A stretch of 64,000 nucleotides of DNA from an uncultured Pelagibacteraceae bacterium. Lineage in GTDB: Bacteria; Pseudomonadota; Alphaproteobacteria; Pelagibacterales; Pelagibacteraceae. The notes beneath the pieces were generated by a model that was not told the origin of the DNA, searched no databases, and saw only the letters and a program-made list of their open reading frames with translations. The position numbers and the translations under genes were made by a program. Location of the stretch: positions 1-64,000 of the forward strand of contig CACKNV010000005.1 of assembly GCA_902601705.1 (NCBI GenBank), in the 5' to 3' direction. Below, one piece after another: positions 1,348 through 6,206 of the stretch. Each line of letters begins with the position of its first letter. Position 1 is the first letter of the stretch.

Positions 1348-2388
1348 ATGAAAATAACCTTAATTGTAACAACAGGTAGAACTGGGAGTGATTATTTACA
1401 AAGATGTTTGGATGGTTTGAATGGATTAATTGTCTTCACAGACAAATTTAACTATCATCAGTTCTTTGAAAACAAAAATCAAAAGATAAATTCAGAAATT
1501 CTATTAAAAAGATTTTTAGAAAAATACTCATATTTATTTAAAGAAATAAAAATAGAAAATATTAAGATAAAATTTTCGATAAAAAAATTTAAAAAATATT
1601 TTATGCAATTATCAAAAAATAAGCCAATGAATAGAAAACAGTTTTTTTTATTACTTTATAAATCTTATCACTTAACTTGTGGGAAAAAGTTATCAAAAGT
1701 AAAAAATATTATACATCATTCTCACGGAGTAAATAATACTATTCAAACCTTAAAGGATTTCCCCAATGCAAAAATATTAATTACTGTTAGACATCCTTTA
1801 ATGAATTTAAAATCTGGTTTATACAATTGGTTTAGATATAAAAAATCTATAATATCGATGAAACGAGTTTTCTTTTATGTTTATAGAATAAGACAAGATT
1901 TAAAATATTTAAATTCATTAAAAAATAGAAAATTTTTTATTAAACTCGAAGAAGCCAATAATAAAGCTGTTAAAAAAAAACTTTGCAATTTTTTAAATAT
2001 TAAATACCAAAAAAAAATTTATAAAGCTTCAATTCTAGGAAAACCGTGGATTGGAGATAAGGTATCCTCAAAAAATTCTTTACAGGGAAGATATATAAAT
2101 CCTGGAGATGCTAAAGACGTGTTTAAATTTTTTGAGAAAAGAGAGGTAAAGTTGCTTAATCACATTTTTATAGATTATAAAAAATTTGGATATAGCTTAA
2201 AAACAACTAGTAGTATAAATTTTTTTATTACTATGTTTTATCTATGTTCATTTGAAAAATATACTTTTAAAAATGCAAAAAAAAAATTTTTTTTTAGTAA
2301 TATTTTATATTTATTTTTGAGATATATTTTTTTTATTTTAATTTTGTTTAAATTAGACAAGCTGTTAAAAAAAATTCATTTAACCTAA
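1348..2388 (+). CDS. Sulfotransferase-like protein with hydrophobic C-terminus
   Basis: N-terminal TTGRTGSDYLQRCLDG (5'-PSB loop-like) and ITVRHPLMNLKSGLYNW (3'-PB-like); hydrophobic C-terminal segment. Confidence 0.6.
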   Translation: MKITLIVTTGRTGSDYLQRCLDGLNGLIVFTDKFNYHQFFENKNQKINSEILLKRFLEKYSYLFKEIKIENIKIKFSIKKFKKYFMQLSKNKPMNRKQFFLLLYKSYHLTCGKKLSKVKNIIHHSHGVNNTIQTLKDFPNAKILITVRHPLMNLKSGLYNWFRYKKSIISMKRVFFYVYRIRQDLKYLNSLKNRKFFIKLEEANNKAVKKKLCNFLNIKYQKKIYKASILGKPWIGDKVSSKNSLQGRYINPGDAKDVFKFFEKREVKLLNHIFIDYKKFGYSLKTTSSINFFITMFYLCSFEKYTFKNAKKKFFFSNILYLFLRYIFFILILFKLDKLLKKIHLT

Positions 2389-2392
2389 GTTT

Positions 2393-3163
2393 ATGAAAAA
2401 AGTTATTAAAAAATTATTTGAAATTCTAGGCTACACGATTTCTAAGAAAAGTGATGAGAGAGAGGTAAAAATTTTATCACTTGATGAAATCTATAGTCAA
2501 AAAATAAAATCTTCGCCGTTAATTTTTGATATTGGGGCTAATAATGGGCAGTCAATTAAAAGGTTTCAAAAATTATTTGATCAACCCGTCATACACGCGT
2601 TTGAACCAAATATTAGAGAATTCAAGAAATTAGAAAAAAATTTTTCAAAAAATAATAATATTCAATTAAATAATATTGGAATTGGGGACAAAGAAGAAAT
2701 AAAAGAATTAAATGTAGCAGCACATTCTGAAAATTCATCATTTGTTAAACCAACGTTAAATACAAAGTGGATTGAATTAAGGAGTGAACAAGCAAAAATT
2801 GAACAAAGCCAATATATTTTGTCAAAAGAAAAAGTTAAAATTGATACTATTGATAATTACTGCTTAAAAAATAAAATTAAACACATAGATATTTTAAAAA
2901 TAGACACCCAACTTTATGAAGATAAAGTTTTGGAAGGTTGCAAAAATATTATAGATAATCAATTGGTTGATGCTATTGAACTTGAGATAGTTTTTAGTAA
3001 AGTATATGAAAAATACTTCTCATTTAGTGACATTGAAAAATACCTAGTTCCTAAAAATTATAGATTTTCAGCGATACAAACTCATAACAACAACCTTTTT
3101 TCAGGGTCAATATTTTTTGCTGTAGCTCTATATTTAAATAAAAAAAAATTTAATTTAGATTAG
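2393..3163 (+). CDS. FkbM family methyltransferase
   Basis: FDIGANNGQSIKRF, HAFEPN, HIDILKIDTQLYEDKVLEGC motifs. Confidence 0.88.
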   Translation: MKKVIKKLFEILGYTISKKSDEREVKILSLDEIYSQKIKSSPLIFDIGANNGQSIKRFQKLFDQPVIHAFEPNIREFKKLEKNFSKNNNIQLNNIGIGDKEEIKELNVAAHSENSSFVKPTLNTKWIELRSEQAKIEQSQYILSKEKVKIDTIDNYCLKNKIKHIDILKIDTQLYEDKVLEGCKNIIDNQLVDAIELEIVFSKVYEKYFSFSDIEKYLVPKNYRFSAIQTHNNNLFSGSIFFAVALYLNKKKFNLD

Positions 3164-3170
3164 TTTACTA

Positions 3171-3992
3171 ATGATAAATTCAATTATCTATAATTTAAAA
3201 ACTCCACATAAAATTCCTATTAAAATCTTTAAAAAGATAAAGTATATAATTGATAGATTAAATTATGATCAGAAAAAGTATGAAAATGAACAAAATATTA
3301 AATTTTCTAATCTGAGTTTAGATAGATTAAAAGGTCTAGAAAAATTAAAAAAAATCAAATCAAAATTAAATTTTTTAAATAGAGATATGTCTTCTGAACA
3401 TGAAGTTTTGTTTTCATCAATTTCTTTATTAAACAATACAAAAATCTCGAAAATTTTAGAAATTGGTACTTACGATGGAGCCAACGCTTATTTACTATCA
3501 CAAATTTTCCATAATGCTGAAATAGAAACAATTGATTTAAGTAAAAGTGATGATGATTTTAAAAATTTCTATAACAGAAAAAATAATTTAGATACATTTG
3601 TGAAAAATAGAAATACCTTAATTGCAAAAAGTGATAAGATAAATTTTATCGAGATGAATTCAATTGAATTAACAAAAAAAGACAAGCAAAAATATGATTT
3701 AATTTGGGTAGATGGTGCTCATGGCTACCCTGTTGCTTGTATTGACTTAGTAAACTCTATAAAACTTCTTAATGATGATGGCTTTATATTAGTTGATGAT
3801 ATTATATTGTCTAATACTGATAATGATAGAATGTATTTTTCAAGCGCTGGTTATGATACCTTAAAAGAGCTTAAAAAAAGCTTGGTAATCGATTTTCATT
3901 TAATTTTTAAAAGATTGGATGCCAATAGTAATTGCGATAAATCACAAATAAAATACATAGCTTTTGTAAAAAAAAGAAAAAAAGGATTATAA
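3171..3992 (+). CDS. Class I SAM-dependent methyltransferase (Methyltransf_24-like)
   Basis: ILEIGTYDGANAYLLS, YDLIWVDGAHGYPVACIDLVNSIKLLNDDGFILVDDI. Confidence 0.78.
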   Translation: MINSIIYNLKTPHKIPIKIFKKIKYIIDRLNYDQKKYENEQNIKFSNLSLDRLKGLEKLKKIKSKLNFLNRDMSSEHEVLFSSISLLNNTKISKILEIGTYDGANAYLLSQIFHNAEIETIDLSKSDDDFKNFYNRKNNLDTFVKNRNTLIAKSDKINFIEMNSIELTKKDKQKYDLIWVDGAHGYPVACIDLVNSIKLLNDDGFILVDDIILSNTDNDRMYFSSAGYDTLKELKKSLVIDFHLIFKRLDANSNCDKSQIKYIAFVKKRKKGL

Positions 3993-4005: not shown

Positions 4006-4767
4006 ATGAATTATTTTTTTGGAGTAAATAATAATATTTTTAAGTCGGAAATTCAAATACCTAGATTTAGAAATAGATCTTTGAAAACTTCTAATTTAAA
4101 ATTATTTAAATCTTTTCCTCAAAATAATAAATGGATTATAGAAGAAGTAAAAGAAGATCTATCAAATAAATATTTTTATTTACTTAAAAAAGATGATGTC
4201 ACTAATAAGGATATATTTTTTCTTGCTGACAAAAAAATTCTAGCTAGTTTTAATAACTTAAAATTAGAACATTTAAATGACTTCACAGAAACTCTTCCTG
4301 CTTATAGATCTAATTTAAAAATTTTTATTGAAGAGGGTGGATTTTCATCGTATCAGTCTGAGTACCCTCATTCAATGACCACAAAAAAAGGCTCAATACT
4401 TAGCGCTATAAATTCTCTTGCAAACACAAATGCTGATAATAATTTCATAATAATTAAAAATATATTTGTTGATCCAATAGAGGATAAATTTAAAGCTTAT
4501 ATTGTAAATTGTAATTCAAAAAAAATAGAGGAAGAATATGAAATAACTACAAACTATACCAATTTAATTGAAATCAATAAAAAATTAATAAAGCATGATA
4601 ATTTTTTATATACAAAAGGTTTCTTAGGAGTTCCAATTTATATCTCAACAAAAAATAAATTTGTTTCTTGTGAACATACTCATCCCCCGCATGAATACAT
4701 TCTGAGTAATAATAAATTTAAAAAAATAAAAGAATTAAAAGACGAAATTAATGAAATTATTAAATAA
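4006..4767 (+). CDS. Hypothetical protein, no family recognised
   Basis: 253-aa ORF in operon order; contains a CEHTHPPHEY His/Cys cluster; end overlaps next ORF by 17 nt. Confidence 0.7.
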   Translation: MNYFFGVNNNIFKSEIQIPRFRNRSLKTSNLKLFKSFPQNNKWIIEEVKEDLSNKYFYLLKKDDVTNKDIFFLADKKILASFNNLKLEHLNDFTETLPAYRSNLKIFIEEGGFSSYQSEYPHSMTTKKGSILSAINSLANTNADNNFIIIKNIFVDPIEDKFKAYIVNCNSKKIEEEYEITTNYTNLIEINKKLIKHDNFLYTKGFLGVPIYISTKNKFVSCEHTHPPHEYILSNNKFKKIKELKDEINEIIK

Positions 4768-5518
4768 AATTAATATAAACTCACAATTATTTAAATTATT
4801 AAGAAACAAATTAAATATTAAACCTGTACCTTTCTCAGATTTCAATAACGTTAATTCTGTTTCAGTAAGTGATGCTTTCCTTTGGAGAACGGATAATGGA
4901 TTTACAACAAAATTTAAATATTCTGATATTTTAAATCTTTTTTTTAAAATAAAAAACTCATGGGTTGAGATACATTTTTTTTCAAAAAATAATAAATTTA
5001 TAAAAAAAGAAAAGTTTTATAATTTAAATCTTTCAAATGAATTAATCATTAATTCTAAATATTTAAATATTGAGGATTTTGGCTCTTTCTACATTTACCA
5101 TTATTCTAATAAGAAAATGGAAGAAAAAAATGTAATAAGTAATAGGTGTTATTTAGGATTTTCCCATAAAAATAATTTATATTCTTTTGTACATGGAAAC
5201 ACTCTTGCAAAGTTTACTGAAATTTTTCCTTCAAATAAAATTGAAACAGATATCGTACAAACAACAGCTTTTCAAAATAATAATTATACTATACAAAAAT
5301 ATTTTGATAATTTTGATAAAACTGAGTTATTTTTTACAAACCCGACATCTAAAAAAATTTATTTTTCAATAGAGGACAAAAGCTATTCTTTAAGCCCAGG
5401 TTGTACAAAATTATTGTCAATAAATGACAAAATTATAACAATAAGATCAAACTGTTTATTCTTAAGACCAACTGTTTTTAGTTATAAAAATAATTATTAT
5501 GACGTCCACCATAGTTAG
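4751..5518 (+). CDS. Hypothetical protein, no family recognised
   Basis: 255-aa ORF overlapping the previous ORF; SVSDAFLWRTDNGFTTKF and CYLGFSHKNNLYSFVHGN segments; C-term YYDVHHS. Confidence 0.7.
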   Translation: MKLLNKININSQLFKLLRNKLNIKPVPFSDFNNVNSVSVSDAFLWRTDNGFTTKFKYSDILNLFFKIKNSWVEIHFFSKNNKFIKKEKFYNLNLSNELIINSKYLNIEDFGSFYIYHYSNKKMEEKNVISNRCYLGFSHKNNLYSFVHGNTLAKFTEIFPSNKIETDIVQTTAFQNNNYTIQKYFDNFDKTELFFTNPTSKKIYFSIEDKSYSLSPGCTKLLSINDKIITIRSNCLFLRPTVFSYKNNYYDVHHS

Positions 5519-5542: not shown

Positions 5543-5617
5543 GGGCGTGTAGTTCAGTGGTAGAACGCTACGTTGACATCGTAGAGGTCATAAGTTCAAT
5601 TCTTATCACGCCCACCA
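5543..5617 (+). tRNA. tRNA-Val (GAC)
   Basis: Acceptor GGGCGTG/CACGCCC, anticodon arm CTACG-TTGACAT-CGTAG, T arm with GTTCAAT, encoded CCA. Confidence 0.95.

Positions 5618-6087: not shown

Positions 6088-6206
<119 letters not shown>

Follow-up and report, generated by a model that had tools for sequence, protein, structure and literature searches.

An overlapping gene pair at the 5S-side end of a Pelagibacteraceae O-chain island, candidate subunits of a surface-glycan decoration complex

The window, i.e. the whole stretch of 64,000 nt considered here, begins with base 1 of contig C5 of an uncultured Pelagibacteraceae genome (1.08 Mb, 15 contigs). Its first genes are, in order, a methyltransferase fragment, a GT2 glycosyltransferase, a sulfotransferase-like gene (1348-2388, scoring below the Pfam cut-off), an FkbM-type methyltransferase recognised by family match (cluster c8; 2393..3163, + strand), a Methyltransf_24 methyltransferase (cluster c9; 3171..3992, +) and then the two genes studied in this work, called A and B. 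The last genes of this string, up to the pair, are separated by at most 13 nt. Downstream of B lie a tRNA-Val (5543-5617) and a 5S rRNA gene (6090..6204, +), together with an ABM-domain gene and a gene that, from inspection by eye, we take to be pntA-like.

ORF A (4006..4767, +), the first gene of the pair, starts with ATG and encodes 253 aa; ORF B (4751..5518, +), the second, also starts with ATG and encodes 255 aa. Both products are uncharacterised beta-rich proteins. The ORFs share 17 nt (4751..4767, +), in which the C-terminal NEIIK-stop of A lies over the MKLLNK of B, and the reading frame is open in 34 aligned relatives of A and in 33 of B. An earlier reading made by eye from the letters (hereafter, the sequence-only reading) had described two similar-sized ORFs with this overlap, a CEHTHPPHEY cluster in A and the stretches SVSDAFLWRTDNGF and CYLGFSHKNNLYSFVHGN in B; all of them are present in the translations, and the blocks it had picked as conserved rank among the most conserved ones (EHTHPP; SDxFxWRTD; HGN). 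Precisely, residues 209-231 of A (4630..4698, +) comprise a hairpin and the EHTHPP motif, with E223, H224, T225 and P227 invariant. In B, the block SDAFLWRTDNGF occupies residues 40-51 (4868..4903, +; S40, D41 and F43 invariant), the hairpin RCYLGFSHKNNLYSFVHGN occupies residues 132-150 (5144..5200, +) and ends in the invariant H148-G149-N150, and the C-terminal hairpin RPTVFSYKNNYYDVHH spans residues 239-254 (5465..5512, +; R239, P240 and H254 invariant). The sets of invariant residues are mostly polar in both proteins: R101, N103, S115, Q117, N152, N183, S221, E223, H224 and T225 in A, and R18, N19, S40, D41, T53, H148, N150, Q182, N197, R239 and H254 in B.

With A as query we sampled 197 genomes of the family and 397 of the order, and matches were obtained in 7 and 14 of them, respectively. 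B as query returned the same seven family genomes plus two proteins (in G033 and G047, E near 1e-3) that we rejected as spurious, these being a nucleotide-sugar dehydratase and an oxidoreductase; the matches of B in the related family f2 were in three genomes, all of which have A. A profile scan of 84,980 species genomes, with alignments as queries, yielded 31 loci which, together with the window and with G040, G005, G295 and G197, make 36 distinct records. B lies directly 3′ of A on the same strand in every one of the 36. Of 32 pairs, 15 have an overlap of exactly 17 nt, among them that of L063, a contig of 43% GC labelled Nitrospiraceae. Pairwise distances of A and B are correlated at 0.90, against a maximum of 0.48 over 999 label permutations, and the trees of A and B concur in their well-supported joins (e.g. 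L063 with L064, L050 with L066, L046 with L065, L037 with L039 and L067 with L036). Values of dN/dS were between 0.08 and 0.23 in four pairs for each gene, i.e. both genes are under purifying selection. Recurrence in 36 records with B always after A, combined with such low dN/dS, is more than chance can account for. Hence, because of universal adjacency, conserved overlap, matching trees and purifying selection, we regard A-B as one genetic unit and have hardly any doubt that it is also one functional unit. The sequence-only reading had supposed that the two ORFs work together and had proposed, as its own test, a search for homologs co-occurring as an adjacent pair across genomes; homologs were always neighbours, in the same order and strand, and neither of the two outcomes it had named as contrary, a match to a known family or homologs away from the partner, arose.

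Defects or truncations were seen in four of the 36 records (G040, L055, L060 and L058). L060 has a frameshift in A, and L058 begins within A. In L055 (1500-2310), the codon for the conserved Trp45 of B reads TGA (SDSFC*RTDNGF) and the remaining frame is intact; this is either a nonsense mutation that arose recently or an error in the sequence. In G040 (L018:10690-16100), B is frameshifted in a poly-A tract, after which it disappears into a long run of N extending to a 16S rRNA gene; this damage is an assembly problem at the O-chain island, and we discarded as an artefact of the same N run and frameshift an apparent 1,769-aa fusion of B.

The sequence-only reading had recognised no domain in either ORF, and the library searches agree. 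Pfam gave no consistent match for A, for B, for the 34 relatives of A or for the 33 of B; NCBIfam gave none for A or B, PADLOC none at E 0.1, and single-sequence and profile searches of PDB sequences nothing for either. Against PHROGs, where B and a few A proteins were run, matches were at chance level only, to a profile of 91 positions in 2 of the 33 B proteins. The family of A and B is thus absent from the libraries searched, while their setting is of a known kind, that of O-chain modification cassettes. Two readings of sequence features were considered and rejected. The HTHPPHE of A superficially resembles the HxHxxxE of a cupin metal site, but A lacks the HxH(x)3-4E pattern inside a beta-barrel by which cupins are recognised: relatives have E, Q, T, S or A at the glutamate position, the motif comes where the last predicted strand ends, before helices, and there is no cupin Pfam match. 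That the N-terminus of B is an amphipathic membrane anchor was discarded on a mean z of -0.17 with respect to shuffles. Since no signal peptide is evident by eye in A or B, the pair is probably cytoplasmic.

AlphaFold modelling of each protein, another step that the sequence-only reading had proposed, produced confident beta-rich models. The AlphaFold2 models, built on alignments of 30 sequences, reached pLDDT 92.0 for A and 91.6 for B, with pTM 0.88 each. A is modelled as two strand-rich halves followed by a C-terminal helix, and B as a basic helical N-terminus followed by two strand-rich halves; by eye, the strand pattern of the models reads as that of beta-sandwiches. Foldseek found no credible fold for A or B in the PDB, nor for B in a viral library, the listed PDB and viral alignments having TM of at most 0.27 and large rmsd; for the PDB the listed TM-scores reached about 0.25 at most. 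The two proteins do appear to be related to each other. With hhalign, the second half of A aligned with the first half of B at E 0.0003 and with the second half of B at E 0.006, and the full-length A-B profile score (28.1) exceeded those of all 100 column shuffles (maximum 21.8). The aligned segments end in a beta-hairpin closing on an invariant histidine, LGVPIYISTKNKFVSCEHTH in A and RCYLGFSHKNNLYSFVHGN and LRPTVFSYKNNYYDVHH in B. These profile alignments suggest that the second domain of A and both domains of B are related, and that A and B arose partly through duplication of one domain. Related, beta-sandwich-like domains in both proteins would probably pack as a pseudo-symmetric heteromer, and we consider it quite likely that A and B form a stable one.

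Within Pelagibacterales, A-B is sporadic, being present in about 3.5% of these SAR11-type genomes. Class- and phylum-wide draws recovered only the copy in the window, no paralog of B was found in the window's own genome, and no homolog was found among viral contigs, phage records and plasmids with the queries tried. Single-sequence scans of genome contigs and viral contigs gave no match, whereas the alignment query did find loci in the genome contigs. A few copies stand under other labels (Bacteroidetes, a gammaproteobacterium, Nitrospiraceae and Flavobacteriales). Some of these labels may be wrong; the L063 contig is just 6.5 kb long. In L066 (1-3900), labelled Flavobacteriales, we noticed ppiB-, lpxH- and septation-protein-like genes that by eye are typical of gammaproteobacteria, and the label of this bin may be wrong because its genes look gammaproteobacterial. 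Despite the doubtful labels, the trees suggest that A-B moved horizontally. Some copies are located within O-chain islands, others next to housekeeping genes (L041, L043).

In Pelagibacterales, the O-chain biosynthetic cluster ends at the 16S-ITS-23S operon on one side and at the 5S gene on the other (PMC11898729). The work describing it does not analyse gene functions, and it places SAR11 O-chain islands among the most variable parts of the genome, most of their genes having no usable annotation (PMC11898729). The 5S rRNA gene at 6090-6204, which the sequence-only reading had missed, marks this border in the window, so that on the 5S side the cluster ends with A and B, next to the GT2, FkbM and other glycan genes; the 23S side lies beyond this contig. 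The surface-sugar context that had been supposed for the pair is therefore real, with an island bordered by the 5S rRNA gene and methyltransferases adjoining the pair. Compared with the published cluster, A-B differs in its low frequency and in its occurrence outside the island too.

The neighbours of A-B belong to varied sugar pathways (CDP-glucose dehydratase, AroB-like cyclase, sulfotransferase and others), and hence A-B does not go with any single sugar. Its recurrent neighbours are methyltransferases of two unrelated families, FkbM (c4) and Methyltransf_24 (c9, the gene directly upstream of A in the window), one of which abuts the pair in 16 of 33 loci. Counting loci regardless of their relatedness, c4 or c9 accounts for 16 of the 55 genes adjacent to the pair, compared with 3 of the 300 other neighbours. 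In 17 of the 33 loci neither abuts A-B. The FkbM cluster is present in 17 genomes without A-B, and the FkbM family is mixed on its tree; we therefore rejected an obligate dependence of A-B on the FkbM gene, whose family is wider. In six of the FkbM loci without A-B (L074, L076, L079, L080, L082 and L083) a protein of about 210 aa resembling 2OG-Fe(II) oxygenases, with a Pfam score just under the cut-off, is next to or near FkbM; it occurs in no A-B locus examined. This arrangement of FkbM and oxygenase is a close parallel within SAR11, as the same FkbM family adjoins A-B and both behave like mobile modification cassettes, though the sequences of A-B are unrelated to the oxygenase. The comparison, over flanks of only 1.5 kb, hints that A-B and the oxygenase-like protein fill the same slot.

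As A and B are always together, usually in a glycan island and often by a methyltransferase, they are probably halves of one sugar-decorating complex, probably one so far undescribed. Moreover, their invariant residues remain fixed while the sugar pathways around them change, which is easier to reconcile with a constant substrate or chemistry than with strain-specific recognition of the chain. On this ground we propose that A-B is an obligate two-subunit complex for a constant decoration step of the O-chain, working with a SAM-dependent methyltransferase, in SAR11 and in a few other bacteria; we lean towards this proposal, and hold a role in surface-glycan decoration to be equally probable. 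The complex would perform, or enable, a constant decoration on a strain-variable O-chain. At the hairpin ends, conserved polar residues and histidines may form a shared pocket, which would act on, or hold, an acceptor common to otherwise different glycans; the neighbouring methyltransferase would then use this acceptor, which A-B would often deliver. Given a decoration role, the chances that A-B has a catalysis of its own, rather than binding or presenting the acceptor, seem to us about even. Against the decoration reading count the 17 loci of 33 in which neither c4 nor c9 adjoins the pair, the copies that adjoin housekeeping genes (L043), the occurrence of FkbM without A-B and its mixed tree, and the failure of the fold searches to yield any biochemical clue.

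A different role within the same pathway would be that of a non-catalytic complex whose beta-sandwich subunits bind the methylated end, or a constant part, of the lipid-linked chain and so control capping or export, as the carbohydrate-binding module does in O-antigen ABC exporters. Such exporters recognise terminal modifications through this module (PMC10629545), and the beta-rich models of A and B, as well as the adjoining methyltransferases, are what glycan recognition would lead one to expect. The resemblance to the C-terminal domain of Wzt, which consists in beta-rich proteins tied to terminally modified, often methylated, O-chains, serves as a working analogy only. In fact, A and B are separate polypeptides that lack an adjacent ATPase partner, they match the Wzt carbohydrate-binding domain neither in Pfam profile nor in fold, no exporter gene recurs beside them, and their invariant residues are constant across glycan contexts where strain-specific recognition would need variation. 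We thus regard glycan recognition as unlikely, and as less so than a more specific form of the decoration proposal, in which A-B catalyses the supply of the methyl acceptor in the very slot of the FkbM-linked oxygenase-like protein. The presence of that protein in six FkbM loci without A-B, and in none of the A-B loci examined, speaks for acceptor supply; on the other side, the oxygenase is missing within the 1.5-kb flanks of FkbM in 11 of the 17 genomes without A-B, its own Pfam score is slightly sub-threshold, and A-B shows no oxygenase fold or family match, so that we give this form a rather small chance. Finally, a pair that is rare, patchy, overlapping, apparently horizontally moved and at times outside the island could be a mobile defence or toxin-antitoxin type element merely located in a recombination-prone island. 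This we consider very improbable in view of the absence of PADLOC matches and, with the queries tried, of phage or plasmid homologs, of the strong link to glycan genes and methyltransferases, and of the equal size and even conservation of A and B, unlike a short toxin with its antitoxin.

In its boldest form, the preferred reading of A-B as a decoration complex would make the pair a heteromeric beta-sandwich enzyme of a new class, whose active site would combine hairpin-end histidines and polar residues from both A and B and which would install or prepare a constant substituent of the surface polysaccharide. We put this forward tentatively, as a possibility that we would not expect to hold; if true, some of the most abundant bacteria of the ocean would carry a constant substituent on their surface polysaccharide. 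Solving A-B would give a function to an unannotated protein family of these bacteria, and a type of beta-sandwich enzyme or recognition complex not seen before may come to light. For this purpose the pair offers a defined two-gene unit, a candidate methyltransferase partner, a comparison over 36 records, confident models and fixed invariant residues.

Two further observations concern the neighbourhoods of the methyltransferases. Past one and the same isocitrate/tartrate dehydrogenase-like gene, G060 has A-B-FkbM (L041:109-3622) and G040 has a lone Methyltransf_24 (L095:1498-3564); this flank, which is outside the main island, is possibly a hotspot for the insertion of glycan-modification genes. 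A sulfotransferase-like gene whose product starts with TTGRTGSDYLQxCLD is found near a c9 methyltransferase both in the window (1348-2388) and in G145 (L094:2349-3374), and it may represent a second recurrent pairing.
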